From Runella slithyformis DSM 19594 (GTDB lineage: Bacteria > Bacteroidota > Bacteroidia > Cytophagales > Spirosomataceae), in NCBI RefSeq assembly GCF_000218895.1, contig NC_015703.1:557501-621500 (forward strand): a DNA stretch of 64,000 nt. Direction: 5' to 3'. Every line of letters starts with the position of its first letter. Position 1 is the stretch's first letter. The position numbers and the translations under genes are program-made. This document shows positions 3,870-43,536 of this stretch, piece after piece. Under the pieces are notes generated by a model. It searched no databases and had not been told where the DNA came from. It saw nothing but the letters and a program-made list of their open reading frames with translations.

Positions 3870-3894
3870 TTTGCAGGTGTTTTTCACCTGCAAA
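3870..3894. repeat. 25-bp hairpin; left target duplication of IS copy 1
   Basis: A perfect palindrome with 10-bp arms, TTTGCAGGTG and CACCTGCAAA, around a TTTTT loop. It abuts the left inverted repeat of the IS and is repeated exactly at 5335-5359, so it behaves as the target-site duplication. Further copies of the same hairpin family without an IS lie at 52847-52871 and 57232-57256. Confidence 0.85.
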
Positions 3895-3926
3895 CATGAG
3901 TCATCCCGAAGTTTAGGGTAAAAAAG

Positions 3927-3975
3927 AACCTCCTTGTAATTTTGAGAGTCACTACAAACTCAAAAACAGGGAGGT
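3927..3975 (+). promoter_or_regulatory. Leader hairpin covering the transposase ribosome binding site
   Basis: The arm AACCTCCTTGTAATTTTGAG (3927-3946) can pair with CTCAAAAACAGGGAGGT (3959-3975). The second arm contains GGGAGG (3969-3974), a strong Shine-Dalgarno 7 bases before the ATG at 3982. Pairing would hide the start site. The same structure is present in copy 2. Confidence 0.6.
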
Positions 3976-3981
3976 CTTTTT

Positions 3982-5328
3982 ATGTTCAGAACAATACTGC
4001 AAAACAAGGATAAAAACGCTTCAAAGTCAAGAGCTTCAGACTTCATTTTAGAACGGGGGCATCGGTATCTTCACCCACTTCAACTTCGCTTAGATGCCCT
4101 GATTGATACTCGTTTGGTGAGTACATTCTATGACTTATTTATGGCGATATTGGTGTTTCGTCACAACAGGATGGGGCTGTTATTGAGCGAGTTAGGCGGG
4201 TATATTTGTGGATTATCGCACGCCCCGGCGGGTACGAAGCGTATCAGCAATTTACTTCGATGTAAAAAATGGTCTTCCACATTGATTGATGACTTTTTCT
4301 TTGAACGTAGCCGTGAGCGAATTAAGTCCTTACAATCCAATGGTCAACGTCCTTTACTGCTGTGGGATGAGAGTAAGATTGAAAAGAGTGAATCATGGTT
4401 TTTGGAAGGCTTATGCAGTGTGGAAAGCAGTAAAGGCAAACGATTGACCAAAATAAGAAAAGGCTTTTATAAGCCACCTACTCAACGCATTTGTGTGCCC
4501 GGCTTTCATTGGACAGCTACCCTTTTGTCAGCTTTGGGACAAACTCCAAGTGTATGTCAGATGAGTTGGTGGACATCAAGGGGTAAATATCAGGAAGTAG
4601 GGACCAACATTATCTTTCGGATGCTCAAAAAGCTCCATAAAACCATTGGAAGCAGCGTTCTGCATGTGTTAGACCGAGGTTATGCCAATGCCTGGACGAT
4701 TGAATGGATGAATGAGTTTAAACAGGACTTTTTAGTTCGTTGGAAGAAAACACATCTATTATGCCATTCTGAAAAAGGAACCAAACAGACTCATTTATTA
4801 GCTCGCTCTTTCAAAGCAGTGGGGCGTAAAATGCTTCGTGATAACCAACGCAAAATCAGTAAGTATGTCACGATCGCTTACACACAGGTCACTCACGCTG
4901 ATTTCAAAGATAAATCCCTATGGCTCATTATCGTACGTGACAAAAAAAGTTTACAGCCCCCTATGTATCTGCTAACCTCCATTGCCATTACCAATACTCG
5001 ATTGGCTTGGGAGATGTGTCATTCTTATATGCATCGCTGGAATATAGAGCAAACCTTTAGATGTAGTAAAGCCGAATTGGGTATGGAGTCACCCAGGCTT
5101 TGGTTCTGGGAAAATAGACTCAAATTACTTGCTATTGTAGCATTAGTCTATGATTTTCTGCTGATGTTATTGAGAAATTGGAGCCATTGGATTCCGCTTT
5201 TTCTCAGACATTGGTGCCATAGAACAGGAAATCGGTACCGAAACGCTTCGATACCGATTTACAGATTAAGACTCGCCATCTCCCACGTGCTTTACACTGC
5301 TTGTTGCGCTTGCCAAACTTCGGGATGA
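3982..5328 (+). CDS. IS4-superfamily DDE transposase, copy 1
   Basis: A 448-residue DDE transposase. Candidate catalytic acids are D129 (LLLWDESK) and D231 (HVLDRGYA). The C-terminal IS4 signature Y-x2-R-x3-E-x6-K is exact: Y349, R352, E356, K363 in YMHRWNIEQTFRCSK. The N-terminal 110 residues are likely to bind DNA. The stop codon overlaps the right inverted repeat. The reading frame is intact and identical to the protein at 42052-43398, so both copies look recent and possibly active. The IS4 superfamily normally makes short fixed-length target duplications; the palindromic 25 and 51 bp flanks seen here are not typical. Confidence 0.92.
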   Translation: MFRTILQNKDKNASKSRASDFILERGHRYLHPLQLRLDALIDTRLVSTFYDLFMAILVFRHNRMGLLLSELGGYICGLSHAPAGTKRISNLLRCKKWSSTLIDDFFFERSRERIKSLQSNGQRPLLLWDESKIEKSESWFLEGLCSVESSKGKRLTKIRKGFYKPPTQRICVPGFHWTATLLSALGQTPSVCQMSWWTSRGKYQEVGTNIIFRMLKKLHKTIGSSVLHVLDRGYANAWTIEWMNEFKQDFLVRWKKTHLLCHSEKGTKQTHLLARSFKAVGRKMLRDNQRKISKYVTIAYTQVTHADFKDKSLWLIIVRDKKSLQPPMYLLTSIAITNTRLAWEMCHSYMHRWNIEQTFRCSKAELGMESPRLWFWENRLKLLAIVALVYDFLLMLLRNWSHWIPLFLRHWCHRTGNRYRNASIPIYRLRLAISHVLYTACCACQTSG

Positions 5329-5334
5329 CTCATG

Positions 5335-5359
5335 TTTGCAGGTGTTTTTCACCTGCAAA
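5335..5359. repeat. 25-bp hairpin; right target duplication of IS copy 1
   Basis: Exact duplicate of 3870-3894, abutting the right inverted repeat of the IS. Confidence 0.85.
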
Positions 5360-5440
5360 ATAAAATTATCAGCAATAATGATGTTGGCGGTGAAAATACC
5401 CACCAACGACCGAATTAACTTTTTCATTGAAATCAGATGT
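5360..5440 (-). other. Orphan leader-peptide reading frame cut by the IS
   Basis: On the minus strand an ATG at 5427 opens MKKLIRSLVGIFTANIII, which looks like a signal peptide, and runs through the hairpin into the IS. If the IS and one hairpin copy are removed, this frame continues without a stop into the rhamnosidase frame. The 17 bases CTGATTTCAATGAAAAA occur here (5440-5424) and again at the rhamnosidase start (3863-3847), so the segment between them may be an older insertion that duplicated the start. A diverged hairpin of the GGTGAAAA type lies at 5383-5407. Confidence 0.45.
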
Positions 5441-5461
5441 AGGTTTGAAGTGGAAGGGCTG

Positions 5462-6376
5462 TTATTTCAGTTCCTCTTTTAAAAATGCAATGACTTTATT
5501 TTTGATTTCATCAACATCATACATTTTCCCAAAGTGCGGAGCATCTTTCACGATGGTCAGCTCGTTTTTAACGCCAAAATGATTTAACCAGGCACTAAAC
5601 AATTTTGACTGTTTGTTGGAGACGATATTATCTTTTTCACCGTGATAAATCAGAAACGGCGGGTCATTTTTATCAATATACGTGATCGGACTGGCGGCTT
5701 TTGCCAAATCCGGTCTTTCCAAGGGTTTGGCACCGATCAAAATACCTTCGGGTGATTTTACATCTTCATTTCCCGGAAGCAGGGTTAAATCCGTTGGGCC
5801 ATAAAAATCAACCACCGCCTTGTATTTGAATGGACGATAAGAGCCGGGGGAATACAAATTCTTTACTTTGTTGTTGTGTGATGTTCCCATCAGAGAAGCT
5901 AAATGCCCCCCTGCCGAAAAGCCCATGAGCGCTATACGGTTTTTGTCCAAACCATATTGGGCGGCATTGTCATACAAAAACGAAACCGCTTTGTTACAAT
6001 CTTGCAGGATAGCCGGAAAAACGGCGTTCATCGCAAACCGATAATCAATGGACGCTACTGCCATGCCGGTATTGAGCATTGCGGCAACCGTATTGGGCAT
6101 ATAGCCCATATCGGCATATTTATCATTGCCAATCCACCCACCCCCATGAATCAACACCACCAGCGGAACGCCGCCCGAAGGCACTTTCCCTTTGGCTTCG
6201 ACAGGCAGGTAAATATCCAATAAATGTTTTTTAAGGGTATCATTGTTATAAGGGACATTGCCGTGCAGAACGGTGCCCTGCGGCAAAAATTTCATTATGG
6301 GGTTTTCCCGTTGGGCCTGGGCCGTGAACGCCGAAAAAAACACCGACAGGGCAAAGCAGAAAAAGTTGATTTTCAT
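5462..6376 (-). CDS. Secreted alpha/beta hydrolase, esterase/lipase family
   Basis: A 304-residue BD-FAE/acetyl-esterase-like hydrolase with a signal peptide (MKINFFCFALSVFFSAF, cut near TAQAQ). The oxyanion motif HGGGW is at 77-81 and the nucleophile elbow GFSAGG places S154. The likely rest of the triad is D249 (GEKDN) and H281 (DAPHFG). It probably removes acyl groups such as acetate or hydroxycinnamate from plant glycans outside the cytoplasm; the exact ester is unknown. It lies upstream of the rhamnosidase on the same strand and was probably in one operon with it before the IS inserted. An MFS gene is upstream, beyond a terminator-like hairpin. Confidence 0.82.
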   Translation of the reverse strand: MKINFFCFALSVFFSAFTAQAQRENPIMKFLPQGTVLHGNVPYNNDTLKKHLLDIYLPVEAKGKVPSGGVPLVVLIHGGGWIGNDKYADMGYMPNTVAAMLNTGMAVASIDYRFAMNAVFPAILQDCNKAVSFLYDNAAQYGLDKNRIALMGFSAGGHLASLMGTSHNNKVKNLYSPGSYRPFKYKAVVDFYGPTDLTLLPGNEDVKSPEGILIGAKPLERPDLAKAASPITYIDKNDPPFLIYHGEKDNIVSNKQSKLFSAWLNHFGVKNELTIVKDAPHFGKMYDVDEIKNKVIAFLKEELK

Positions 6377-6410
6377 TTTTGAGCAAAAGTTACGGTTTAC
6401 TTTTTATCAA

Positions 6411-6441
6411 AAGGGGAAAGAGTAAGCAACCCTCTCCCCTT
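6411..6441 (-). terminator. Hairpin terminator after the MFS gene
   Basis: On the minus strand AAGGGGAGAGGG pairs with CTCTTTCCCCTT and is followed by TTTTGATAAAAAG. It lies 210 bp downstream of the MFS stop and 35 bp upstream of the esterase start, so it probably ends transcription coming from the MFS gene. Confidence 0.5.
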
Positions 6442-6650
6442 CCATTAGTACAAATAAATACTGCTTTTATCCAGAAAGTATCCTGAACTCACCTGTATTA
6501 ACTCAAAATGAGACAATAATTGTAATTGAACACAAAAAGCTGTTTTGGATAGTCTGATTGATTGAAAATGCATCACCTGCCTGCTTCATTGTGCAAAGGA
6601 AAACAGTAAAAAAAAGCAGGACCGGCAGATGGGGAGACTGACGCTCTCGA

Positions 6651-7871
6651 TCAGGACTTGACCTGCTCTTTCAGCTTCATGACAAAAAATAAACCGATAA
6701 ACGCCAACGTCGCGGCTACCCAAAGAAAAGCGGAAGGAGCGATCCTGTCGGAAAGGACGCCCGCCAAGGCCGGAATCATCACACCGCCGACAATCTCCGC
6801 AATACCCGTGATCAGTCCTATGGCTTTTGCTTTCAGGTGATCGGGGACCGATTCGGAGGGAATTACAGCCGCCACCAGCGGAATAGCCCCCATCGTAAAA
6901 TAGGTAAAAAACATGGCCGGAAGGTGAAAGGCCGAGCCTGCCAAAAAGTAAACGGCAAACGGGTAGAACAATCCGACCGCCATAAAGATCGTCAGCACTT
7001 TTTTCCGCCCAATCTTATCGGAAAGCCCGGGTACGATGATGGAAGACAAAAGCCCCGAAACGCCCAATAGCCCCATGGTTTTGCCCATTTCATCGGCCGA
7101 CATTCCCTGAGAATTCACAAAATAATTGGAGATAAAAGGTAAAGCGGCAAACCACCAGCCAAATACACAGCAGGCCGCTCCAATGCCCCATTTGATGTTG
7201 TTGTACTGTAATAATTCGGCGGTATTAAGGGCTGAGCTTTCCTTCGTTTGAGCGGCCGACGCTTCGGCGACCGTCGCTCCGGCGCTCTCTGCGGTTGAGT
7301 TTTTGACAAATTTCCACGCCAGCAAACCTAACACCAACCCCGGTGCCCCTGCCACAAAAAAGGCATTGCGCCATCCCATGTTTTCGGCAATTTGAACCAG
7401 CACGACCGGGGCCAAAATAGACCCGAAAAGGGCAGACCCTACGCCTTGCAAAATTCCGGCGTTTATACCCAGACGATTGGGCGAGGATTCTTTTTCAACA
7501 AAATTTTGTGCCAAAGGGATCACCGGGCCTTCGGCAAAGCCCATGACGAGGCGGGCGATCAGCAACGTTACAAACGAAACCGCCCATCCTGAACCCACCG
7601 AGCAAAGGGAAAACGTAATGACGGCAACAATAAAAACGAGTTTTTTCCGATTGTGGGTTTCGGCCCAAGCCGTGGAGAAAAAGCTCGAAAATGCCCATGC
7701 CAAGGACAGCGCTCCCGCCAACAACCCGATTTGGGTGTTGTTGAGTTGCAGGTCTTTGGCAACGTAAGGCATCAGAAAATTTAGCGCCAGACGGTCAAAA
7801 AACAGGCACCCAAACGTGAGTGCCATTAACAATACGATACCGTTTTCGTAGGTAAAGAGTCCTTTTTTCAT
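6651..7871 (-). CDS. MFS transporter
   Basis: A 406-residue major facilitator with about 12 hydrophobic helices. The cytoplasmic loop between helices 2 and 3 is AETHNRKKLVF and the second-half counterpart is SDKIGRKKVLT, both of the MFS G-x3-D/E-R-K/R type. The closest general resemblance is to anion:cation symporters and sugar-acid or aromatic-acid importers. A likely role is to import a released sugar acid or phenolic acid, because it sits between two secreted esterases. It is transcribed on the minus strand, downstream of the esterase at 7950 with a 78-bp gap. The substrate cannot be read from the sequence. Confidence 0.85.
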   Translation of the reverse strand: MKKGLFTYENGIVLLMALTFGCLFFDRLALNFLMPYVAKDLQLNNTQIGLLAGALSLAWAFSSFFSTAWAETHNRKKLVFIVAVITFSLCSVGSGWAVSFVTLLIARLVMGFAEGPVIPLAQNFVEKESSPNRLGINAGILQGVGSALFGSILAPVVLVQIAENMGWRNAFFVAGAPGLVLGLLAWKFVKNSTAESAGATVAEASAAQTKESSALNTAELLQYNNIKWGIGAACCVFGWWFAALPFISNYFVNSQGMSADEMGKTMGLLGVSGLLSSIIVPGLSDKIGRKKVLTIFMAVGLFYPFAVYFLAGSAFHLPAMFFTYFTMGAIPLVAAVIPSESVPDHLKAKAIGLITGIAEIVGGVMIPALAGVLSDRIAPSAFLWVAATLAFIGLFFVMKLKEQVKS

Positions 7872-7949
7872 GTATTCAGCGAGGTTTAGGGGTAATTTGA
7901 GTGTAGTGGGCGGCTCTATCCGCCATGGTATTTAAGGCCGGTCGGCGGT

Positions 7950-9089
7950 TTACCTGAACAGCCTCGGGGCAAGGTCCAGCAAATGGCTGCGCCAGGCTAA
8001 AAAGGTGTGGGCTCCGCCACCGTTCTGATAGTTGTATTTGATTCCGTACTCATCAAACATCGCCATCATGTTGAGGTTGTTTTTGTAAGCAATATCCGCT
8101 TCCCCTCCCATGTAAATCCTGAAATCTTTAAAGGTATTGATGGTTTTATTGCGCATAACCTCTCCGTACTTTTCTTTGATCTCTGCAATGGTATTGGGAA
8201 AATAGCCGGTACTCATCGGAAACACCTGCGCAAACAGATCGGGGTGCCAAAGTGCCAAATTGATGGTTTGGATGCCGCCCATGGAAAGCCCTGCAATGGC
8301 TCTATGCTCTCGTTTTGAAGAAACAGGATACGTTTTTTCGATAAACGGAATCACATCCTGCACCATATCGCGGCAGAAAGGGTCCTGCCGGTCGCCGGCC
8401 CCCATAAAGAAACCCTGAACGGGCGTATGTCCGGCGGGCATGACCACGATCATCGGTTTGAGTTTGCCCTGCGCATAGAGGTTATCTAAAATCAGATTGG
8501 CTCGCCCGACGGTGGTCCAGGAGGCATCATTATCGCCCCCGCCATGCAGCAGATACAGCACGGGCAGTTTCTGCGACCTGCTGATCTCGTCGTAGTTTGG
8601 CGGCAAATACACGTGCAAACGGCGCGTGATGCCCTCCAACGCTGACGATTTGTAGTACACTTTTTCGATTTTTCCGTGCGGAACGTCTTTGAGCGTTTGA
8701 AACTCATTTTCAGGGCCTTTGATCTCAAATACATTCGAAAAGCCGTTGTTTGACTCTTTGTATTGCGCATTTTTGGGATCAAATACTTTCAGTCCGTCGA
8801 CGTTGAAATCGTAGGTATAGACATTGGGAGCTACGGCCGAAGCCGTGGTAAACGACCATACCCCTGCGCCGTCTTTTTGCAATTTAGCCGGCGGAAAACC
8901 ATTCGGAAAATCGCCCGACACTGTTACTTCAGAGGCTTTAGGGGCATAAAGGCTAAATTTTACTCTTCCGTCCGTGAGTTGTTGGATGGATTTCAGTGTG
9001 TCATTGGGGGTAGGCGGTCTTTGGGGGAATTGAGCAAACACAGCGGGCGTAAGCGCAACAGCTAAAAGGGCAAGAACAGCTTTTTTCAT
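7950..9089 (-). CDS. Secreted esterase with N-terminal immunoglobulin-like domain
   Basis: A 379-residue exported enzyme: signal peptide 1-19 (ending VFA before QFPQ), an early-set/CBM48-like beta-sandwich at about 35-125, then an esterase-D/feruloyl-esterase fold (PF00756 type). HGGGDND near 182-188 forms the oxyanion hole and GLSMGG places the nucleophile at S269. A late histidine in GGGAHTFLAW completes the triad. This architecture is typical of xylan esterases that release ferulate or acetate from polysaccharide. It heads a minus-strand run with the MFS gene. The expected product, a hydroxycinnamate, would suit the CoA-ligase operon at 46-51 kb. Confidence 0.85.
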   Translation of the reverse strand: MKKAVLALLAVALTPAVFAQFPQRPPTPNDTLKSIQQLTDGRVKFSLYAPKASEVTVSGDFPNGFPPAKLQKDGAGVWSFTTASAVAPNVYTYDFNVDGLKVFDPKNAQYKESNNGFSNVFEIKGPENEFQTLKDVPHGKIEKVYYKSSALEGITRRLHVYLPPNYDEISRSQKLPVLYLLHGGGDNDASWTTVGRANLILDNLYAQGKLKPMIVVMPAGHTPVQGFFMGAGDRQDPFCRDMVQDVIPFIEKTYPVSSKREHRAIAGLSMGGIQTINLALWHPDLFAQVFPMSTGYFPNTIAEIKEKYGEVMRNKTINTFKDFRIYMGGEADIAYKNNLNMMAMFDEYGIKYNYQNGGGAHTFLAWRSHLLDLAPRLFR

Positions 9090-9259
9090 TGCTTCAGAAA
9101 TAATGGGCTAAACTTTGGTACTATTTTGATAAATTTTTATACAAAGCTAACTTATCTCACTCAGAAAAAATGGGCAAAAAACGTCCGAAAGTATGCAAAA
9201 TCAATTCATTGGGTTTCAAAAAGCCTTGAGCGTCCCGCCCGCTTTCTCTCAAAACAATG

Positions 9260-9291
9260 TTTAGTTTCACCGTTTTTTATTCTTATTTTTG
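9260..9291 (+). promoter_or_regulatory. Bacteroidota-type promoter for the first Uma2 gene
   Basis: TTTA (9260-9263), a 20-bp spacer, then TATTTTTG (9284-9291), close to the TTTG/TAnnTTTG consensus. Transcription would start about 30 bases before the ATG at 9327, which supports that start. Confidence 0.5.
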
Positions 9292-9326
9292 GTCATAGTT
9301 TCTTCTTTATATCAAAAAGGTAACGT

Positions 9327-10004
9327 ATGGGCTTTGAATATGTGGACAAAATAATGGCTTCGCCCGATGCACCTCAACAGGTAGAGGCTTTGTACAGAGC
9401 CATCGAGGATGAAAAAAAACGACGCCGTGATTTTCGGGAATGGATTACTCCGGCCATTAAAGCTGAGTTTATCAACGGTCAGGTCGTCTTGCATTCTCCT
9501 GTCAAAAAGCGGCATTTCAGTGTCACCGATTTGCTGTCGAGTTTGTTAAGTTTTTATGTCAGATTTAATAAACTCGGTCGGGTCGCGACAGAGAAAGCGA
9601 TGATTGCGCTTACGCGCAATGACTACGAGCCGGATTTGGTTTTCTTCTCCAAAGAGAAATACGATACGTTTTCCGACGATCAACTCCTTTTTCCCGCCCC
9701 TGATTTCGTAGTCGAAATCATTTCTAAAAAAACGGCTTCCATCGACCGGGGCGTCAAAAAACAGGATTACGCTGCCCACGGGATTCGAGAATATTGGATC
9801 ATTGACCCCTTTCGACAAAATATCGAACAGTACGTGCTTCTTTCGCCCAATGATACCCACTATACACCTCCTAAAACGTTTGGGTTAGCCGATGAAATTG
9901 AAAGCTACGTCATCAAAGGATTCAATATTCCGGTACAGGCTCTTTTTGATGAAGCTGTCAATGTAGAGACCATGCAGTTCCTGATAAACCCACCCACATT
10001 GTAA
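9327..10004 (+). CDS. Uma2 family (DUF820) restriction-endonuclease-fold protein
   Basis: A 225-residue Uma2 protein with a PD-(D/E)xK nuclease-like core. The acidic residues are visible in YEPDLVFF and APDFVVEIISKKT, followed by KKQDYAAHGIREYWIIDP. Function in the cell is unproven; the family is strongly expanded in Cyanobacteria and Cytophagales. It is on the plus strand, opposite to the catabolic genes on both sides, has its own promoter, and lies in a gap between the secreted esterase and the cyclase. A second, diverged Uma2 gene follows at 10859. The pair looks like guest genes rather than part of the pathway. Confidence 0.85.
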   Translation: MGFEYVDKIMASPDAPQQVEALYRAIEDEKKRRRDFREWITPAIKAEFINGQVVLHSPVKKRHFSVTDLLSSLLSFYVRFNKLGRVATEKAMIALTRNDYEPDLVFFSKEKYDTFSDDQLLFPAPDFVVEIISKKTASIDRGVKKQDYAAHGIREYWIIDPFRQNIEQYVLLSPNDTHYTPPKTFGLADEIESYVIKGFNIPVQALFDEAVNVETMQFLINPPTL

Positions 10005-10051
10005 GTTTTCAAAAGCGTGAGTGGGTTTACCAAGCTTTTCCAAGTACACAT

Positions 10052-10813
10052 CTACTCTTCCAAAATGGCCACGGCGCGCGTCCAGCCCGCACTTGCGGCT
10101 TTGATCTTGGCCGGGAAACAAGCCACTTTGAAACCAAACGGCGGCAATTGGTCCAGATTGGCCATTTTTTCAATTTGACAGTATTCTTTTTCAATACCCA
10201 CGTAATGTGCCTGCCAGATAATGCCCGGACGCGGATTGGCCCGGTAATCAGCCGCCTGAATGTGCAGCGGAATATCCCAACCCCAACCGTCGGTGCCCAT
10301 CACTTTGATGCCTTGGTCAATGAGCCAATGTGTGGCTTTGGCCGACGCACCTACGTGAATTTTGACAAAGTCAGGGTCGTGCAAACGCTTATCGGCATCG
10401 CAGCGAATCAGTACGATGTCGAAGGGCTTGAGGGTATAATTGATGGCGGCCAGTTTTTCGATCAGGTCTTCGGGCTCAAACATATAGCCGTCGGGCTTGT
10501 CGGTAAAATCAAGCACTACACCGTCGTGAAAAAACCAATCCAGCGGCATTTCGTCAATGGTACGCGAGGGTTTGCCTTCACTGGTCGGGAAATAATGGTA
10601 TGGGGCATCCACGTGCGTTCCGCAATGGCTCGTCACGGTCAAAAACTCACCGGCCGGGCCGTTTCCGTCAATAAACACATCGCCGGTAATGCCTTCGAAG
10701 AGTTTTCCACCCATTTTTTTAGCTCCTTCTTTATGGTCTTCATAGACGATTTTGGTAGGAAGCGGCTCTTTGATTTCCTCAGAAATCGTCACGGAGAGGT
10801 CAATGATTTTCAT
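10052..10813 (-). CDS. Cyclase family protein (kynurenine-formamidase-like)
   Basis: A 253-residue metal-dependent hydrolase of the cyclase/KynB fold. The family signature H-x-G-T-H-x-D-x-P-x-H is complete: H63, H67, D69 and H73 in SHCGTHVDAPYHYF. There is no signal peptide. Relatives hydrolyse N-formylkynurenine, isatin or lactone/amide intermediates of aromatic breakdown. In this window it is the most downstream gene of the minus-strand ring-cleavage set at 10-18.6 kb, separated from it by a plus-strand Uma2 gene. A tryptophan route is unlikely because no kynureninase or tryptophan dioxygenase is present. I infer hydrolysis of a cyclic or formylated ring-cleavage intermediate. Confidence 0.8.
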   Translation of the reverse strand: MKIIDLSVTISEEIKEPLPTKIVYEDHKEGAKKMGGKLFEGITGDVFIDGNGPAGEFLTVTSHCGTHVDAPYHYFPTSEGKPSRTIDEMPLDWFFHDGVVLDFTDKPDGYMFEPEDLIEKLAAINYTLKPFDIVLIRCDADKRLHDPDFVKIHVGASAKATHWLIDQGIKVMGTDGWGWDIPLHIQAADYRANPRPGIIWQAHYVGIEKEYCQIEKMANLDQLPPFGFKVACFPAKIKAASAGWTRAVAILEE

Positions 10814-10843
10814 TTGAATTGGTTGATAATTACGTTATTTTTG
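10813..10843 (+). promoter_or_regulatory. Promoter for the second Uma2 gene
   Basis: TTTG (10813-10816), exactly 19 bp, TATTTTTG (10836-10843): a full match to the Bacteroidota TTTG-N19-TAnnTTTG pattern, 15 bp before the ATG at 10859. It overlaps the start region of the divergent cyclase gene. Confidence 0.65.
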
Positions 10844-10858
10844 TAAAAAGAACAGGTC

Positions 10859-11485
10859 ATGACTACTCATACACGAGAATTTACGCCTCCTCTCAAACTA
10901 AGCCGTCCTGTGCGTAGGTATACGCTTGAACAGTACCTGAAAAAAGAAGCGAAATCCATTCATAAGCACGAATTCATTGACGGTCAAATCATTAAAATGC
11001 CCTACGCCAAAGGCCCTCACAATATCATTTCGGTCAATATGATGACTCAAATGACAGTTCATTTAGAAAATCTTGAAAAAAACTATATTGTCTTTCCTTC
11101 CGACCAGTTAGTTTATTTTCCAAGTCTTGATGCAGGTGTTTACGCCGATGCGTTAGCCGTTTGTGAAAAGCCGTTGTATTGGGACGACAATCAACTCTTA
11201 TTGATTAATCCGATTATCGTTGTAGAGGTTTTGTCAAAAAGCACCTCAAAATATGACAGAGCAGGGAAATTCGACAAATACAAAACCCTTGAATCATTCC
11301 GTGAATATGTACTCATTCGTCAGGATGAATGCTACGCCGAGGTTTGGTTTCGTGAAAGTCCCGGCCGTTGGCAGGAAACCATTATCACAGATATTACTGC
11401 AAAAATTCCCTTACAATCCGTCGGTATTTCCATTTCAATGGAACGGGTTTATCGTAATATTGAGCTAAAACCCAAATCTTCATAA
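10859..11485 (+). CDS. Uma2 family protein, second copy
   Basis: A 208-residue Uma2 protein. Recognisable core segments are YTLEQYLKKEAKSIHKHEFIDG near the N-terminus, then DALAVCEKPLYWDDNQ, NPIIVVEVLSKSTSKYDRAGKFDKY and ESFREYVLIRQDEC. The E-V-L-S-x-S-T motif carries the presumed nuclease glutamate. It is diverged from the Uma2 protein at 9327, so it is not a recent duplication. It is on the plus strand within minus-strand catabolic genes and starts 45 bp from the divergent cyclase. Function is unknown. Confidence 0.85.
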   Translation: MTTHTREFTPPLKLSRPVRRYTLEQYLKKEAKSIHKHEFIDGQIIKMPYAKGPHNIISVNMMTQMTVHLENLEKNYIVFPSDQLVYFPSLDAGVYADALAVCEKPLYWDDNQLLLINPIIVVEVLSKSTSKYDRAGKFDKYKTLESFREYVLIRQDECYAEVWFRESPGRWQETIITDITAKIPLQSVGISISMERVYRNIELKPKSS

Positions 11486-11605
11486 TGCAGCACCACGGGC
11501 GGGTTTTCAAAAAACGGCCCGATCAATCCGCGCCATTCTTTGAATAATTCCGATTCGCGAAAACCGATTGTGTGCGCTTCGAGTCTCTCCCAAATGAACT
11601 TTTGA

Positions 11606-11689
11606 AGTACGAATAACTCGAATGACGAGTGACGAATTTCTAATCAAACCAATATTCGTACTTCGTCATTCGAGTTATTCGTCATTCAA
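11606..11689. repeat. GAATGACGAAT-type inverted repeat, locus 1
   Basis: Arms of about 34 bases (11606-11639 and 11654-11689) built of GAATGACGAAT-like units pair with a few mismatches around a short AT loop. The right arm contains TCA at 11686-11688, which is the stop codon of the FAA hydrolase gene. The remaining 11486-11605 interval shows no gene. Confidence 0.8.
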
Positions 11690-12639: not shown

Positions 12640-12645
12640 CTTTTG

Positions 12646-13437: not shown

Positions 13438-13464
13438 TTTTTTAAACCACAGAAATACGAAGAA

Positions 13465-14754: not shown

Positions 14755-14777
14755 ATAACCTCCTCCCGCTGCGGCGG

Positions 14778-33982: not shown

Positions 33983-34032
33983 GATTCGTGTTAAGGTTTA
34001 ATTTTCTTCCATAAGCTACATTCGACCCGCCT

Positions 34033-35667: not shown

Positions 35668-35686
35668 TTTCTTGGGTTAAATTTAT

Positions 35687-35711
35687 TTATTGTCTCAATC
35701 TGTGACAATAA
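35687..35711. promoter_or_regulatory. Candidate operator between carboxylesterase and Nudix regulator
   Basis: Inverted repeat TTATTGTC (35687-35694) and GACAATAA (35704-35711) with a 9-bp spacer, 20 bp upstream of the carboxylesterase start and in the shared 76-bp region with the divergent regulator. NrtR-type regulators bind palindromes of this size. Confidence 0.5.
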
Positions 35712-35738
35712 TAATTCACTTTTTGAAATATCCCTAGT

Positions 35739-35746
35739 TAATTTTG
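35739..35746 (+). promoter_or_regulatory. -7 element of the Nudix regulator gene
   Basis: TAATTTTG fits TAnnTTTG exactly. It overlaps the first possible codon at 35744, so translation probably starts further down, at TTG 35774, TTG 35792 or GTG 35795. Confidence 0.4.
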
Positions 35747-36487: not shown

Positions 36488-37000
36488 ATACGTCAGTGAA
36501 GGCCGGGCACAAAAAACGTCGGCGAGGGCTGGGTCGCAACGGCCGGGGCTGCCCGTACGGCACCATGCCCTACGGTTTCGTCAGACTTGATATGTACATT
36601 GGAGAGATAGCCCCTGCCCTGAATTTTGGGCAATTTTCACGGCTTTTCGGCCTTTGTATTCAACAAACTCCACCTTCCTGAAAACTCCGCTTTTCAGGAA
36701 TCAGCGGAATCGTAAAGTCGGCGGATGCGGTGGGTAAAAGCGCTGCTTTGCTCTTATTTTTTTGCGCAAAACCTTGAATGATAATCTGAAGAAAGACAGG
36801 CAAAAAGCGGATATAAGCGGTTTTGGGGGCAATACCGATTTAACGGCACGGGGGCGGTAAGACATACATGGCCGGAAGGCAAAAAAGCAAGGTAATCTTT
36901 AAACATCCGCGCTTTACCCGACCTTTTTCCTCTTTTCAGCCTCTGTACAACCTACAAAACAAAACCATTGCCTGCTGTTGATTCCGGCGGATTTTCATTT

Positions 37001-37016
37001 CTTACCATTTGGTAAG
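37001..37016. promoter_or_regulatory. Operator-like palindrome upstream of the reductase
   Basis: CTTACCA-TT-TGGTAAG, perfect 7-bp arms, 22 bp upstream of the TATTTTTG element at 37038-37045. Position suits control of the reductase and Crp-like gene pair. Confidence 0.45.
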
Positions 37017-37037
37017 TGCCGCTAATCTTGGGTTGTC

Positions 37038-37045
37038 TATTTTTG
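37038..37045 (+). promoter_or_regulatory. -7 element TATTTTTG of the reductase gene
   Basis: Exact TAnnTTTG match 22 bp before the ATG at 37068. No clear TTTG lies 19 bp upstream, so an activator may be needed. Confidence 0.4.
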
Positions 37046-37067
37046 CCCAAACTAAAAATGAAAACAA

Positions 37068-38090
37068 ATGAAAAAGGTACTGTTAACGGGCATTACGGGT
37101 TTTTTGGGTTCGCATACGGCCATTCAATTACTGGAAAAAAACTACGAAGTCATCGGCACGCTCAGAAGCTTGAAGCGAGCGGAATCTATCAAAAACACGA
37201 TCGCAAAACATACGGATAAAGTACAGAATTTAACATTGGTCGAAGCGGAACTCAACGACAAAGGCATTTGGCAAAAGCTCACGGAATCCGTGGATTATGT
37301 ACAGCACATTGCCTCACCGTTTCCCAGAGAATTGCCCAAAAATGACGACGAATTGATCATTCCCGCTAAAAATGGGGTATTGAATATCCTGAAAGCCGCT
37401 TCGCAAAACGGCGTCAAACGAGTGGTTCTGACTTCATCGTCTTCCGCCATTTTATACGGACGGGAAAAACACGACCGCAATGGAACATTTGATGAAACCA
37501 CCTGGACAGATGTGACCAATACAGCCGATACGACACCGTACTTCCGAAGTAAAACCATCGCCGAAAAAGCCGCCTGGGACTTTATTGCCAACGATACCTC
37601 CGGGATGCAATTGGCAACGGTTCTTCCCGGGGCGATACTCGGCCCGGTATTGGAAGAAGACTTCGGGACTTCGGCCAATATTGTCATCAAAGCCCTTGAC
37701 GGAACCATGCCCGCCGTTCCGAAGATCGGTTTCGACATGGTCGATGTGCGATCGGTGGCGGAATTATTGATTTTGGCGATGGAAAAACCACAGGCGGCCA
37801 ATCAGCGCTATGCGGGGTCGGCGGGGTTCATGACCTTTAAAGACGTGATAGAAGTACTGAGGAGCGGCTTTCCCAACCGAAAATTCCCCTCAATGGTTTT
37901 GCCTGATTTTGCAGTACGGCTGTTTTCCAACTTTGATAAAACCTTACAGCCCATTTTAATAGACCTGAGTGTGCAACGTAAGCTCAGCAATGGAAAGGCC
38001 GTCAATCAATTAGGATGGCACCCCCTCTCCAATAAAGAGGCGATTTTGTCCTGTGCCAAAAGCGTGCTCGAACTTGGGATAGTGAAATAG
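37068..38090 (+). CDS. NAD(P)-dependent aldehyde/ketone reductase (extended SDR, DFR-like)
   Basis: A 340-residue extended SDR of the NAD-dependent epimerase family, dihydroflavonol/cinnamoyl reductase branch. The cofactor motif TGITGFLG is at 7-14. The catalytic Ser is in VVLTSSSSAILYG and Tyr-Lys in TPYFRSKTIAEKA. Members reduce aldehydes or ketones with NADPH. A role in handling aromatic aldehydes fits the locus but is inferred. It is followed 22 bp later by a Crp-type regulator on the same strand, suggesting a two-gene operon. Confidence 0.82.
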   Translation: MKKVLLTGITGFLGSHTAIQLLEKNYEVIGTLRSLKRAESIKNTIAKHTDKVQNLTLVEAELNDKGIWQKLTESVDYVQHIASPFPRELPKNDDELIIPAKNGVLNILKAASQNGVKRVVLTSSSSAILYGREKHDRNGTFDETTWTDVTNTADTTPYFRSKTIAEKAAWDFIANDTSGMQLATVLPGAILGPVLEEDFGTSANIVIKALDGTMPAVPKIGFDMVDVRSVAELLILAMEKPQAANQRYAGSAGFMTFKDVIEVLRSGFPNRKFPSMVLPDFAVRLFSNFDKTLQPILIDLSVQRKLSNGKAVNQLGWHPLSNKEAILSCAKSVLELGIVK

Positions 38091-38112
38091 GTGTTGACAG
38101 AAAAAACAGGGT

Positions 38113-38691
38113 ATGGTAAATCTTACAGCAGCACTTCGATTCGGCGGCATATTAAACGAAAACAGTATTCAAAAGGTACTGGAAAATGTAACCGAAACCC
38201 GCCTGAAAGCGAACGAGCATTTTTTGGCATTCGGTCAGATCGCCCACGAGATCATGTTTGTGAGCGAAGGTATTCTTCGCAGCTACGACGTTGACAATCA
38301 GGGTGAAGAAATCACCAAATACTTTGTCAGACCCAATCAGTTTTACGCCGATTTGGAGAGTTATTACAATCTGACTCCCTGCGAAAATGCCATTCAGGCT
38401 GTTACGAATGCGCAGGTGTATGTGATCAAGCGCAAAGCGTGGGAGACACTGAATGAAACTGTTCCGAATTTTTATCTCTACACCAAAAGCATCATTGAGG
38501 CCACTTTGCTTAATAAGATCAAAGACAATGATTTTCTGAACTACGGTACAGCCATGGATAAATACCGTGAATTGCAGAAAAGGTACCCGGAAATCGTACG
38601 TACGGTACCGCAACAATACATTGCTTCGTACCTCAAAATCACGCCGCAATCATTGAGTCGAATCCGAAAAGCCATGAGCAAAAAGGAATGA
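38113..38691 (+). CDS. Crp/Fnr family transcriptional regulator
   Basis: A 192-residue cyclic-nucleotide-binding-fold regulator. The N-terminal beta roll includes FVSEGILRSYDVDNQGEEITKYF. The C-terminal helix-turn-helix ends with IASYLKITPQSLSRIRKAM, a typical Bacteroidota Crp-like recognition helix. It lacks an Fnr Cys cluster. The effector is unknown; many such proteins in this phylum are small stress or redox regulators. It probably shares the promoter of the reductase gene 22 bp upstream and could control it. Confidence 0.85.
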   Translation: MVNLTAALRFGGILNENSIQKVLENVTETRLKANEHFLAFGQIAHEIMFVSEGILRSYDVDNQGEEITKYFVRPNQFYADLESYYNLTPCENAIQAVTNAQVYVIKRKAWETLNETVPNFYLYTKSIIEATLLNKIKDNDFLNYGTAMDKYRELQKRYPEIVRTVPQQYIASYLKITPQSLSRIRKAMSKKE

Positions 38692-38879
38692 AATTACCTC
38701 CGCGGTATGGCAGGAGTTCGCCAATGGAAAATGATTTGTTATTAACCGAAAGCCGGGGAAGGATACGCAACGGGCGTGTCCAACGGAGCCATGTCGGCGT
38801 ATCGGCCGGTAGGTGAACTTCCCCGCAAAATGGCCGCGCGACCGATCTGAGCTTTTTCAGGGATGTCAGTGAAGGTCAC

Positions 38880-39893
38880 CTATATAGTCACGACGATCTT
38901 GCTTTCATTACCCTGCGCGGCCAACTCTAAAGCGGCCTGCAGATGATCGAAATCAGTATAACTTGAAATAATAAAACCCGGGCGAATGACCTTGGCGCGA
39001 ATCAGTTGCATGGCCCGCCGGAAGTCGAACGGATGATCGTAGATGATGGACGGCACGATATGAATGCCTTCCCGGGCAATTTTCAGGGGTTGAAAAGAGG
39101 CCAAGTTGGCCGACAGGCCCACCAAGACAATTTCAGAACCGCGTGGTGCGGCAGCCGTAGCCAACGAAGCCGTAAAGGCCGAGCCGGCACATTCAAAAAC
39201 GGCACACACTTCGTTTTCGGCCCAAAGGTTGGACAGTTCAGCGCTTTGCTCTTCTAAACTCCCCTGCGGCACGGTGGGAATCGCGCCCATGTCGGCGGCC
39301 ATGTTTCGCTTGGTTTCGTTGAGTTCCGACACAAAAACGCGGTAGCCCAACGCCAACGCCAAGTGCGTTACCAGCAAGCCGATGGCTCCCAAGCCAATGA
39401 CGGCAATGGTGTCTCCGGGTTTGGATTGGGTTGAAAACAACGCATGAACGGCCACCGCCGTAGGTTCAAGCACCACGGCATCTTCCTCCGAAATGTCGTC
39501 GGGTACGTGCCGGGCAAAATCGGCCGGCAGCACGACATACTCCGCAAAACAGCCCGCTTCCAGTAAGCCCACGACGCGTTTATTGATGCAGATATTTCCG
39601 CGCCCGCTCACGCAAAAGCGGCATTGTCGGCAGGGAATGTTAGGCTCGACCGCCACCCGCTCGCCGATGTGCCGCCCCGCTACCCCCTCCCCGATCTTAT
39701 CGATCATGCCCAAGCCCTCGTGCCCGATGACGGTAGGATTAGCCAACAGCCGATGCCCTAAAAAAAGGTGTACATCGGAGCCGCAAATGCCTACTTTCGA
39801 CAGTTTTATGCGCACTTCTCCCGCTTTGGGTTCGGGCGTTTCTACAGCGGTGAGGTGAATGTGATGGGGCTGGGTAAGGACGCCTGCTTTCAT
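38880..39893 (-). CDS. Zinc-dependent medium-chain alcohol dehydrogenase
   Basis: A 337-residue MDR dehydrogenase. The catalytic zinc residues are in VGICGSDVH (Cys) and IGHEGLGMI (His-Glu). The structural zinc lobe CRQCRFCVSGRGNIC has all four cysteines. The Rossmann segment is IAVIGLGAIGLLVTHLAL. The family includes sorbitol, xylitol, L-idonate and galactitol dehydrogenases, so it likely oxidises a polyol or sugar acid with NAD. It starts 2 bp after the Fic gene stop on the same strand, so both may be read from one message. Confidence 0.85.
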   Translation of the reverse strand: MKAGVLTQPHHIHLTAVETPEPKAGEVRIKLSKVGICGSDVHLFLGHRLLANPTVIGHEGLGMIDKIGEGVAGRHIGERVAVEPNIPCRQCRFCVSGRGNICINKRVVGLLEAGCFAEYVVLPADFARHVPDDISEEDAVVLEPTAVAVHALFSTQSKPGDTIAVIGLGAIGLLVTHLALALGYRVFVSELNETKRNMAADMGAIPTVPQGSLEEQSAELSNLWAENEVCAVFECAGSAFTASLATAAAPRGSEIVLVGLSANLASFQPLKIAREGIHIVPSIIYDHPFDFRRAMQLIRAKVIRPGFIISSYTDFDHLQAALELAAQGNESKIVVTI

Positions 39894-39895
39894 GT

Positions 39896-41353
39896 TTATA
39901 TTTCACTTGCAATCTGAGCAATCATTACAGTCAATATATTTTCAAGGTGTAATCGAATGTTTTTCTCTTTTGATGAAATCTCATCTTTAATTGAAATAAC
40001 ATGGGGTTTGATGTCAAGCGGGATTGTAGTATCACTGTTTTCATCAAGTAAAATCCCTTTATACTCTAAGAAAGCTCCAATTGCAATTACACTATCATCA
40101 TATCCAAAATGATGTAAGGTAATACCCAACTCATATTTCCTGCTGTCGAATCTAATTCCGAACTTAAAGTATGCTTTAGGTAAGGTTCGATTAAAATAGT
40201 AATTATGTTTATTGGCATAACTTACGATTTGCTCGTAATAATAATGTTGTTTAGTAGCATCATTAGGATTTCCACTTCCAATATAGAATGAAACACTTTC
40301 ATCAAATTCTGCTTCAAGTTTGCGTTTATATTCATTGAGAAATTTATTGCAATATTCAAACACCTGTAACCTGTTGTCAGCAAGCATTCTTTCATATTTC
40401 TTTTGTTTTTCTCTCTGTTTTTCAAGAATTTTTTGTTTGAAAATATTTGTCACTTCATTCAAAGATGTATTACTTACTTCTTTGATATTCAACGCTTCTT
40501 CTATATTTCGTTTTTGGATTTCAGCAAAGTAGGTAACTAACTTCTGAGGTCTTTCAAAATCAGCTTCTTCTAATGCCTGAATGTATTTAACCTTTGCTTC
40601 CTCACGCAATACTGTAATTGGAAAATAATTATTTTTTATAAGAATTAGACTTGCAACTAACCTAACAACTCGACCGTTTCCGTCCTGAAATGGGTGAATA
40701 GTTGTAAATGCATGATGTACCCACGTCGCTGTAATAAGTGGACTTATTTTTTGCTCATTTAATTCATTATAAATTTCAATCAATCTATCCATCTCTGCTT
40801 CCACATGTTCGGGTGGACAATACAGAATAGTCGTCCCGTCATCTCGTGTCGGATTATTTTCATGCTCTTTAAATCTACCCTTGATAAGCGGGATTTTTGT
40901 TTTATTTCCAAATTGGTCTCTACCCTCAGCATATTCCTGATGCCGTGTTGTTAATTGATGCAGTTCACATATAAAACCTTTGGTAAGCGGCCTATCATCT
41001 TTTACTATATCAAAAATAAAATCGACTGCATCAAGATGGTCCTGTAAATGATTAAAAAGAGCCTGTTTTGGTATATTTGTATCTCCGTGGCTTACCAGCG
41101 ACGAAATAAATCCTTCATTAATTAAGGTTTCTGTAACTCCTTTATCAATATCATACATTCTTTCAACAATACCTGTTTCTATAGCATGCCGTCTTTTCAG
41201 CTTATTAATAAAATCTTCATACTCTTTTGAATTTGCCTGTAAGACTTCCCTCCGCGCAAACCAAGATGGCGCAATATCATCTAACAAAGATGTATCACAA
41301 TTTTTCCAGTTGTCAGAAAATGAAATATATTTCCAAAGTCTATGTAATGCCAT
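39896..41353 (-). CDS. Fic domain protein
   Basis: A 485-residue Fic protein. The active-site motif HPFQDGNGRVVR is complete at 220-231, so AMP-transfer to a protein target is plausible. TGIVER at 60-65 lies where class II Fic proteins have the inhibitory (S/T)-x3-E-(G/N) helix, but the last residue is Arg. The long C-terminus after residue 300 has a coiled-coil-like stretch (KQKILEKQREKQKKYERM). Codons are visibly AT-richer than in the flanking metabolic genes, which suggests transfer. No separate antitoxin gene is adjacent. The alcohol dehydrogenase starts 2 bp downstream. Confidence 0.87.
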   Translation of the reverse strand: MALHRLWKYISFSDNWKNCDTSLLDDIAPSWFARREVLQANSKEYEDFINKLKRRHAIETGIVERMYDIDKGVTETLINEGFISSLVSHGDTNIPKQALFNHLQDHLDAVDFIFDIVKDDRPLTKGFICELHQLTTRHQEYAEGRDQFGNKTKIPLIKGRFKEHENNPTRDDGTTILYCPPEHVEAEMDRLIEIYNELNEQKISPLITATWVHHAFTTIHPFQDGNGRVVRLVASLILIKNNYFPITVLREEAKVKYIQALEEADFERPQKLVTYFAEIQKRNIEEALNIKEVSNTSLNEVTNIFKQKILEKQREKQKKYERMLADNRLQVFEYCNKFLNEYKRKLEAEFDESVSFYIGSGNPNDATKQHYYYEQIVSYANKHNYYFNRTLPKAYFKFGIRFDSRKYELGITLHHFGYDDSVIAIGAFLEYKGILLDENSDTTIPLDIKPHVISIKDEISSKEKNIRLHLENILTVMIAQIASEI

Positions 41354-41656
41354 ACTAATTATATTTTAATAAAATGTCTGTCAAATAGATGATAATCTCC
41401 ATTGTAGAGGATATTTAACGAATTAATTGTAAGTATAATTCCTATGAAAGAGCATGAAACTCATTCCGGAACAATCAAAGCCCAAAGTTAGACTTTTCAA
41501 AACTAATTGCCTTACTATCGCATCTGCTCTTCAACTTATGTATTAAGCAGTAATTTAAAGAAAAAACACCCCACAAAACACCCTACAAAAGTAGTAGAAG
41601 CCCCCTCTCCCTGCCTTGTCAAAGGAACCTAAACCTATCAATCAGAATTTCGCCGA
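41354..41656. other. AT-rich intergenic region
   Basis: Nothing coding is supported between the Fic gene and the transporter remnant. A short tandem of CACAAAACACCC-like units lies near 41564-41590. Confidence 0.4.
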
Positions 41657-41956
41657 ATGACCTGCGAAGCGCTGCAAACCCGTTTTACATCTTTGATTGA
41701 CCACAACCCCATGAATACGTTCCAAGTCCTCATGGTGGCGATTTGCTTCATTCTCAACATGAACGATGGCATTGATGTCTTGGTGGTCTCGTTTTCAGGT
41801 TCCGAAATCGTGAAAGAATGGGGGCTTTCCAAAACGGAATTGGGCTACATTTTCAGCGCGGGTTTGATGGGTATGACGGTCGGGGCGTTTTTTCCGGCTG
41901 CCGCTTTTAGTGACGGGGTTGTTTGTTTTCAGCCTGAAATCGAAGAATTTTGAGGA
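41657..41956 (+). pseudogene. Remnant of an aromatic acid:H+ symporter (AAHS-type MFS)
   Basis: The first 75 codons encode the start of an AAHS-family transporter: LIDHNPMNTFQVLMVAICF, MNDGIDVLVVSFSGSEI and LGYIFSAGLMGMTVGAFF. The frame then leaves the family at FFPAA and stops at 41953. In the next frame the DNA reads LLVTGLFVFSLKSK, which looks like the last helix and tail of an MFS protein, so an internal deletion of most of the gene is likely. AAHS proteins import 4-hydroxybenzoate, protocatechuate or hydroxycinnamates; the transporter beside the feruloyl-CoA operon has therefore been lost. Paired palindromes and the second IS follow within 50 bp. Confidence 0.65.
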
Positions 41957-41994
41957 GGAGGTAAACTATCTGCTCAATGCCTGTTTTATCACAT

Positions 41995-42045
41995 TTTGTG
42001 AATCAAATCACAAAACACATACTATTTTGTGATTTGATTCACAAA
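41995..42045. repeat. 51-bp double palindrome; left target duplication of IS copy 2
   Basis: Two 20-bp palindromes, TTTGTGAATCAAATCACAAA (41995-42014) and TTTGTGATTTGATTCACAAA (42026-42045), start to start 31 bp. Together they form one 21-bp-arm hairpin. The whole 51 bp is repeated exactly at 43486-43536 on the other side of the IS. Confidence 0.85.
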
Positions 42046-43485
42046 CATGAGTCATCCCGAAGTTTGGCAAGCGCAACAAGCAGTGTAAAGCACGTGGGAG
42101 ATGGCGAGTCTTAATCTGTAAATCGGTATCGAAGCGTTTCGGTACCGATTTCCTGTTCTATGGCACCAATGTCTGAGAAAAAGCGGAATCCAATGGCTCC
42201 AATTTCTCAATAACATCAGCAGAAAATCATAGACTAATGCTACAATAGCAAGTAATTTGAGTCTATTTTCCCAGAACCAAAGCCTGGGTGACTCCATACC
42301 CAATTCGGCTTTACTACATCTAAAGGTTTGCTCTATATTCCAGCGATGCATATAAGAATGACACATCTCCCAAGCCAATCGAGTATTGGTAATGGCAATG
42401 GAGGTTAGCAGATACATAGGGGGCTGTAAACTTTTTTTGTCACGTACGATAATGAGCCATAGGGATTTATCTTTGAAATCAGCGTGAGTGACCTGTGTGT
42501 AAGCGATCGTGACATACTTACTGATTTTGCGTTGGTTATCACGAAGCATTTTACGCCCCACTGCTTTGAAAGAGCGAGCTAATAAATGAGTCTGTTTGGT
42601 TCCTTTTTCAGAATGGCATAATAGATGTGTTTTCTTCCAACGAACTAAAAAGTCCTGTTTAAACTCATTCATCCATTCAATCGTCCAGGCATTGGCATAA
42701 CCTCGGTCTAACACATGCAGAACGCTGCTTCCAATGGTTTTATGGAGCTTTTTGAGCATCCGAAAGATAATGTTGGTCCCTACTTCCTGATATTTACCCC
42801 TTGATGTCCACCAACTCATCTGACATACACTTGGAGTTTGTCCCAAAGCTGACAAAAGGGTAGCTGTCCAATGAAAGCCGGGCACACAAATGCGTTGAGT
42901 AGGTGGCTTATAAAAGCCTTTTCTTATTTTGGTCAATCTTTTGCCTTTACTGCTTTCCACACTGCATAAGCCTTCCAAAAACCATGATTCACTCTTTTCA
43001 ATCTTACTCTCATCCCACAGCAGTAAAGGACGTTGACCATTGGATTGTAAGGACTTAATTCGCTCACGGCTACGTTCAAAGAAAAAGTCATCAATCAATG
43101 TGGAAGACCATTTTTTACATCGAAGTAAATTGCTGATACGCTTCGTACCCGCCGGGGCGTGCGATAATCCACAAATATACCCGCCTAACTCGCTCAATAA
43201 CAGCCCCATCCTGTTGTGACGAAACACCAATATCGCCATAAATAAGTCATAGAATGTACTCACCAAACGAGTATCAATCAGGGCATCTAAGCGAAGTTGA
43301 AGTGGGTGAAGATACCGATGCCCCCGTTCTAAAATGAAGTCTGAAGCTCTTGACTTTGAAGCGTTTTTATCCTTGTTTTGCAGTATTGTTCTGAACATAA
43401 AAAGACCTCCCTGTTTTTGAGTTTGTAGTGACTCTCAAAATTACAAGGAGGTTCTTTTTTACCCTAAACTTCGGGATGACTCATG
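42046..43485 (-). mobile_element. IS4-superfamily insertion sequence, copy 2 (1,440 bp)
   Basis: Same length, same 20-bp terminal inverted repeats (42046-42065 and 43466-43485) and same protein as copy 1, in opposite orientation. It is flanked by a 51-bp duplicated palindrome pair whose sequence is unrelated to the 25-bp palindrome at copy 1. Confidence 0.9.
42052..43398 (-). CDS. IS4-superfamily DDE transposase, copy 2
   Basis: 448 residues, identical to the product at 3982-5328, with D129, D231 and the YREK signature (Y349, R352, E356, K363). The leader hairpin over the GGGAGG ribosome binding site is also conserved. Intact frame and identity indicate recent transposition within this genome. 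Confidence 0.92.
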   Translation of the reverse strand: MFRTILQNKDKNASKSRASDFILERGHRYLHPLQLRLDALIDTRLVSTFYDLFMAILVFRHNRMGLLLSELGGYICGLSHAPAGTKRISNLLRCKKWSSTLIDDFFFERSRERIKSLQSNGQRPLLLWDESKIEKSESWFLEGLCSVESSKGKRLTKIRKGFYKPPTQRICVPGFHWTATLLSALGQTPSVCQMSWWTSRGKYQEVGTNIIFRMLKKLHKTIGSSVLHVLDRGYANAWTIEWMNEFKQDFLVRWKKTHLLCHSEKGTKQTHLLARSFKAVGRKMLRDNQRKISKYVTIAYTQVTHADFKDKSLWLIIVRDKKSLQPPMYLLTSIAITNTRLAWEMCHSYMHRWNIEQTFRCSKAELGMESPRLWFWENRLKLLAIVALVYDFLLMLLRNWSHWIPLFLRHWCHRTGNRYRNASIPIYRLRLAISHVLYTACCACQTSG

Positions 43486-43536
43486 TTTGTGAATCAAATC
43501 ACAAAACACATACTATTTTGTGATTTGATTCACAAA
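43486..43536. repeat. 51-bp double palindrome; right target duplication of IS copy 2
   Basis: Exact copy of 41995-42045. It continues into AATAGTATGG, which can pair with CATACTATT inside the repeat, giving an alternative hairpin. Confidence 0.85.

Follow-up and report, generated by a model that had tools for sequence, protein, structure and literature searches.

An IS4-like insertion sequence of Runella slithyformis that appears to replace stem-loops at the readable sites and stands between duplicated palindromes at two

The insertion sequence (IS) IS1272, of the IS1182 family, has been reported to replace a stem-loop at its target (Wan et al. 2017, PMC5678879), and Fig. 13 of that paper draws both this route and, as an alternative, duplication of the whole stem-loop (pathways a and b). 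According to the same source, stem-loops are also removed on transposition of TnSha1 and TnSha2, which are composites of IS1272 (Furi et al.). Inverted repeats are duplicated by IS1630 of the IS30 family (Calcutt et al. 1999, as cited in PMC3317919), and in M. fermentans M64 duplicated junctions of 16, 23, 25 and 26 bp are described at four of its seven complete copies (PMC3317919). The IS4 subgroups are tabulated with target duplications of 7-13 bp, the IS50 subgroup among them with 8-9 bp, and the IS4-related IS1549/IS1634 with variable duplications of 8 to 514 bp (De Palmenaer 2008, PMC2266710). Here, we describe a 1,440-bp IS present in two copies, A and B, in a 64,000-nucleotide stretch of the Runella slithyformis DSM 19594 genome (NC_015703.1, positions 557,501 to 621,500; the window). 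Comparison of its copies with one another and with related genomes supports the reading that replacement of a stem-loop is the usual outcome for this element and duplication of one an occasional outcome. It acts like IS1272 at the readable sites and like IS1630 at two, and by its transposase it belongs to neither family.

Both window copies lie between direct repeats that are themselves palindromes (Table 1), as the original prediction had claimed. The repeat around copy A (H_A) is 25 bp long with 10 outer base pairs and the repeat around copy B (H_B) is 51 bp long with 21; both palindromes are of the TTT..AAA type and stand complete on each side of the IS, with junctions that read CAAA/IS/TTTG. 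Chance palindromes are excluded because nothing comparable exists elsewhere in the window: outside the two loci, none of 60,895 25-mers has at least 10 outer pairs and none of 60,817 51-mers has at least 20. That each repeat equals exactly one complete inverted repeat is true of the 25-bp repeat only. The 51-bp repeat falls short of its whole palindrome, as the bases adjoining it (..AT before, AT.. after) pair at two further positions, which places the cut 5' of TTTG and two pairs inside the foot. The 20-bp terminal repeats, CATGAGTCATCCCGAAGTTT, are perfect in both copies, which had been called identical and are in fact one nucleotide apart.

A scan of the whole genome (6,919,729 bp in 6 contigs) for the ends of the element, allowing up to two mismatches, yielded 36 ends, of which 31 are exact and five have one mismatch. 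The exact ends comprise 15 complete pairs plus a solo end, and the five others belong to a sister element with a transposase 92% identical over residues 1-362. One stretch with the sister element (L034, 604-2136; G000:C4:2340103-2341635) carries its right end twice in tandem, at a distance of 77 bp. Direct repeats were found at two of the 15 complete copies, namely A and B, and at none of the other 13. We considered that a short duplication might be masked by misplaced ends, and an approximate search of all 15 copies (repeats of at least 10 bp, 85% identity, offset up to 6) again returned A and B alone. Duplication of a palindrome is therefore not the general pattern of this element. Age does not account for the absent repeats, since nine of the 13 copies differ from copy A by no more than 8 nt in 1,440 bp, with L025 among them identical to it. 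At face value, these 13 copies are what the original prediction had named as evidence against itself; at the readable sites, however, the repeat is absent because the hairpin is gone, and not because the target had none.

Empty sites were compared for seven of the 13 copies, six by DNA (L007, L009, L013, L021, L023 and L025) and one by protein (L017), with L001, L011, L015, L019, L027 and L029 standing outside this comparison. The 12 other genomes of the genus contain no intact copies (one exact 16-bp end in one genome and partial matches in two), and because intact copies are absent there, these relatives can show the state before insertion. Hairpins were counted by reading the sequences, as automatic selection of the strongest hairpin often took a different hairpin from that at the IS. 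At five of the seven sites, a stem-loop is either present in the relatives (four sites, DNA) or implied by coding homologues (one site).

The site of L007 reads TTTCATAAA/IS/TTTTTTGGCAG in the window genome and TTTTCATAAAAGGAGCGGTGTCTTTCGAGACATCGCTCCTTTTTTTGGTAG in a relative (L198). In 11 of 12 relatives there is a related stem-loop followed by a T-tract, the twelfth having a different hairpin, and an A-tract also precedes the stem in five of the 11, including the four nearest. L009 lies between two converging open reading frames (ORFs), and all 11 relatives in which both flanks aligned (of 12) have a hairpin between the two stop codons, with differing sequences and with A..T feet in six, again including the four nearest; in the window genome, no hairpin is left outside the IS at this site. 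For L021, a hairpin GATAAAAAAGGGTRGCCTCA..TGAGACCACCCTTTTTG is present in all three relatives with both flanks aligned (of four), and the window genome reads ACACAAAAAA/IS/TTTTTATAG, the left flank aligning only up to the end of an ORF 124 bp away. For L013, the hairpin GGGCAAACGG..CCGCTTGCCC is present in all five relatives (of 12) whose left flank aligns within 30 bp of the IS, the neighbourhood being different in the other seven, and the window genome reads AATAAA/IS/TTTGTG. L017 resides inside a gene, where six residues (SAFNAL or similar) found in all 14 aligned homologues, of 69 detected, are missing at the IS, and the missing codons would permit the palindrome AGTGCATTTAATGCACT. At L023 the relatives carry a different inverted repeat, and at L025 they align on the left side only.

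In the nearest relatives, the lost hairpin at each of the four DNA sites consists of an A-tract, a stem-loop and a T-tract, and by their look these hairpins would be transcription terminators. The T-tract found behind the stem in the relatives directly adjoins the IS at L007 and L021 in the window genome. The flanks of the non-duplicated copies mostly read ...AA(A)/IS/TT(T)....

Of 222 genomes in the family, 43 contain the 16-bp end CATGAGTCATCCCGAA. Paired ends (up to two mismatches) are present in 34 of 40 stretches from other genomes, nearly all of them short, and no exact direct repeat was found at any of these 34 pairs. The short elements L209-L246 (genomes G047, G049, G037, G048, G135, G013 and G060) are apparently non-autonomous; they have the same ends, a length of mostly 136-284 bp, and A-rich/T-rich flanks without exact duplication. 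One of them, L242 in G013, has a 10-bp flanking inverted repeat (TTCTATCAAA/TTTGATAGAA, one base being additional), which is perhaps the remnant lower stem of a replaced hairpin. Of 164 distinct flanks (ends with at most one mismatch, copies of the window genome included), 130 begin with TTT next to the IS and 149 with TT. We rejected the possibility that AAA/TTT is part of the IS itself, with 34 of the 164 flanks lacking the initial TTT and T-tracts being present in the empty relatives.

Among 19 relatives from named genomes, ends were correctly paired in 16 (L065 ends at a contig end, and L099 and L100 were mispaired, L100 then being paired by hand), with exact repeats of 0-3 bp, or 6 bp for L098 with its shifted ends. 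Palindromes on both sides of the IS were seen in L098 and L100 only. In L100, from a Spirosoma contig, a 75-bp palindrome TTTTG..CAAAA flanks each side of the element (1105-3807), which was later split by another insertion, the ORF of which we take for an IS110-type transposase. L098, from a Chloroflexi metagenome-assembled genome, encodes a transposase 33-36% identical and is flanked on either side by a palindrome of about 27 bp, with one mismatch. L098 and L100 are probably two further duplications in distant relatives.

We consider it probable that the IS inserts at the foot of a hairpin extruded as a cruciform, following shape more than sequence, and we propose as a candidate rule, at slightly less than even odds, that the foot bearing TTT decides between loss and duplication. 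In the proposed reaction, the two 3' ends of the IS would each be joined to the 5'-TTT of a hairpin foot, one on each strand. Where TTT lies behind the stem (the 3' foot, as in terminator-like hairpins), the two single-strand hairpins would remain unjoined and be removed, resulting in replacement with no duplication. Where TTT opens the stem (the 5' foot, TTTG...CAAA), a hairpin would remain attached in single-stranded form on each side and be copied by gap repair, resulting in a duplication of hairpin length. The same reaction would have two outcomes, chosen by which foot has TTT; standard DDE chemistry predicts loss with a 3' foot and whole-hairpin duplication with a 5' foot, provided that the 3' ends of the IS are in every case joined to a 5'-TTT foot. 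At the four replaced DNA sites, the nearest relatives have A..T feet, as do all five hairpin-bearing relatives at L013 and all three at L021. The feet are T..A at A, B and L100, and L098 is T-initial on both strands. Of the model put forward in the original prediction, recognition of a hairpin or cruciform with joining at its base is supported at five of the seven examined copies, and duplication as the rule is not.

Several observations weigh against this reading. The foot rule rests on four duplications versus five replacements, and as terminators normally have A..T feet, the type of foot and the type of target are confounded. The foot of each lost hairpin is itself taken from the nearest relatives, the L017 hairpin follows from codons alone, and L023 and L025 yielded no usable empty site. 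The A-tract before the stem is absent in six of the 11 L007 relatives, five of the 11 relatives read at L009 have feet other than A..T (T..A or T..G in three), and the left-flank alignment at L009 and L021 stops 25-125 bp before the IS. Neither for copy A nor for copy B was a true orthologous empty site found: H_A is absent from the orthologous intergenic stretch of three relatives, and for copy B the argument consists of a single palindrome of G001 that resembles H_B. The L100 palindrome has its middle part in opposite orientations left and right of the element (CCCATAGGG / CCCTATGGG) and lacks one C in the right-hand copy, which simple gap copying would not produce, and the L098 hairpin may be a dispersed repeat. 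Hairpins with an arm of at least 8 that abut the IS end are not enriched, with nine in 164 flanks compared to 35 in 3,272 control positions (about seven flanks by our own estimate), and only long hairpins stand out. Finally, the extrusion of a cruciform and the nucleolytic loss of its hairpins are both proposed steps that no sequence displays.

An alternative that we regard as unlikely also assumes stem-loop targeting, with the same feet always joined, and lets the outcome depend on the fate of a common intermediate, in which the single-strand hairpin is copied by gap repair, cut by SbcCD-like nucleases or skipped by slippage. The occurrence of both outcomes for the same element in one genome fits this, as do the flanking inverted repeats kept at L025 (8 bp) and L009 (7 bp), which are expected of a left-over stem; only three of 210 randomly paired flanks reach 7 bp. 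The flanking inverted repeats of 2-5 bp at most other copies, however, are equally given by randomly paired flanks, and the joined strand starts at the 3' foot at L007 and L021 but at the 5' foot at the window sites.

It is more doubtful still that the element only ever replaces hairpins, the window palindromes having been doubled beforehand and a third hairpin between them replaced by the IS. The CAAA/IS/TTTG junctions in the window do fit the AAA/IS/TTT junction of the other copies, and this account is also helped by the lack of a known orthologous empty site for A or B. Against it, H_A is found exactly once at each of four places in G006 and G012, two of which (L126 and L128) share with the window the GTTGGCGGTG stretch that comes after it. 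In G001, a palindrome resembling H_B is single; G006 has about 1.2 kb of unrelated sequence in the orthologous stretch. Two unrelated palindromes would, in addition, both need perfect doubling, and a similar layout recurs at L100 and L098.

Ordinary duplication of any target, as with IS1549/IS1634, followed by loss of the repeats in other copies, is highly improbable. Long variable repeats do exist in IS4-related elements (PMC2266710), but here the 13 copies lacking a repeat include the nine close to copy A, all 34 related pairs lack an exact one, and it is a stem-loop that the readable sites have lost. The least credible account is host selection, in which surviving insertions sit in harmless terminators with no structural recognition; several copies do lie within 30 bp behind the end of an ORF (ORFs called mechanically), but selection would neither remove a hairpin nor yield palindrome-long duplications, and L017 is inside a gene, yet the codons of its missing stretch allow a perfect palindrome.

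The transposase is of the Tn5/IS4 type, as judged by profiles and a structure model. It matches the Pfam family DDE_Tnp_1, and across 13 transposases DDE_Tnp_1 was found in 12 and DDE_Tnp_1_4 in two, with no other Pfam match. Nine NCBIfam hits, IS4-related models included, were all below their cut-offs (NF033559, 30.5 bits versus a cut-off of 100). Profile searches of solved structures (E up to 1) returned only Tn5 transposase and its inhibitor form (E about 5e-8), and Tn5 transposase was also the top fold match of the AlphaFold model (mean pLDDT 74.6; E 8e-14, TM 0.55, rmsd 6.8 Å). From conservation, we assign D129, D231 and E356 as the putative catalytic DDE residues: Y349, R352, E356, K363 and D231 are invariant in all 13 aligned transposases, and D129 is present in 12, the remaining row having D one column on. 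Their spacing, with 101 and 124 residues between, is IS4-like. That a Tn5/IS4-type DDE transposase reads the shape of its target and not the sequence, with foot polarity alone setting deletion or duplication, is a tentative proposal in which we place slightly less than even confidence.

The element shares with the IS231/ISH8 type the Y(2)R(3)E(6)K signature, the D-D-E spacing, a single ORF, 5'-CAT ends and a length of about 1.45 kb, as given in PMC2266710. Unlike the IS4 subgroups tabulated there, it shows 0 bp of duplication at 13 of 15 copies and 25 or 51 bp at two, and it is IS4-like by its transposase without being a regular IS4 member. Tn5/IS50 provides the closest solved structure and fold and differs in its duplication length. 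The IS1634 family has an incomplete YREK and repeats of 5-6 bp or of long variable length, whereas the present element has the full YREK and stays below the NF033559 cut-off, and the long repeats of IS1549/IS1634 are not described as palindromes in the accessible text of the same paper. Replacement of a stem-loop without duplication (four sites by DNA and one by protein, of seven) is IS1272-like, but two of 15 copies duplicate. For IS1272, replacement is what the available portion of PMC5678879 reports and pathway b is a drawing; here, one element shows both outcomes. No IS1182 model was among the NCBIfam hits at E 0.001, so that IS1272 is set apart by profiles and not by direct comparison. 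TnSha1 and TnSha2 are IS1272-based, unlike the present element, and stem-loop removal is common to both. IS1630 has an IS30-type transposase, a type with no hit in our Pfam or NCBIfam profile searches, and the accessible part of PMC3317919 makes no mention of hairpin replacement; whole-palindrome duplication is seen here at two of 15 copies.

The statement in the original prediction that no element was known in which the duplication equals a full hairpin is superseded by the IS1630 duplications (PMC3317919) and by the drawing of Wan et al. 2017 (PMC5678879). No IS4-type element with both outcomes is described in the titles or abstract openings returned by our searches of an open-licence library. 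Within the scope of those searches, what is new here is that both outcomes come from one element, that a third transposase type is involved, and that a candidate foot rule can be stated. The proposal would unite IS1272 replacement and IS1630 duplication as outcomes of one reaction whose switch can be tested, and it places this reaction on a Tn5-type transposase, for which the structure is solved. If true, it would explain the apparent absence of target duplication in such elements, and many ISs listed with no target duplication or with variable long duplications could share it.

Table 1. Coordinates, within the window, of the two IS copies, their transposases and the flanking palindromes
Feature	Position	Strand	Remarks
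Left copy of palindrome H_A, TTTGCAGGTGTTTTTCACCTGCAAA	3870..3894	.	stem 10, loop 5
IS copy A	3895..5334	+	1,440 bp
Left terminal inverted repeat of copy A, CATGAGTCATCCCGAAGTTT	3895..3914	+	
Leader hairpin, A-tract..CCTCC/GGAGG..T-tract, directly before transposase ATG	3921..3981	+	folding
Transposase of copy A, 448 aa	3982..5328	+	putative D129, D231, E356; Y349-R352-E356-K363
Right terminal inverted repeat of copy A, containing transposase stop codon	5315..5334	-	
Right copy of H_A	5335..5359	.	
Continuation of dispersed repeat that includes H_A, contains GTTGGCGGTG..	5360..5408	.	
Left copy of palindrome H_B	41995..42045	.	51 bp, stem 21, loop 9
IS copy B	42046..43485	-	1,440 bp; 1 nt differs from copy A
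Transposase of copy B	42052..43398	-	coordinates mirrored from copy A
Right copy of H_B	43486..43536	.	

The leader hairpin of copy A (-25 kcal/mol, z -4.4, with 3915-3990 folded) is also present in copy B. It looks like a terminator and covers a GGAGG that resembles a ribosome-binding site. The IS appears to remove host terminator-like hairpins and has one in its own leader, and it may supply its own terminator where that of the host was removed. At the other end of copy A, the right terminal repeat (5315-5334) includes the final codons of the transposase together with its stop codon, and most aligned relatives likewise end in QNSG.

H_A and the sequence downstream of it (5335-5408) match a repeat that is dispersed in the genus and is perhaps REP-like. 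Beside H_B, another inverted repeat, ACTTTTATAGATTCAATTCC..GGAATGAAATCCATAAAAGT, lies at 43578-43640; the related repeat of G006 is next to about 1.2 kb that the window genome lacks. To the left of copy B (41800-41950), a gene that by our reading encodes a transporter lacks about 1 kb present in the relative G006.

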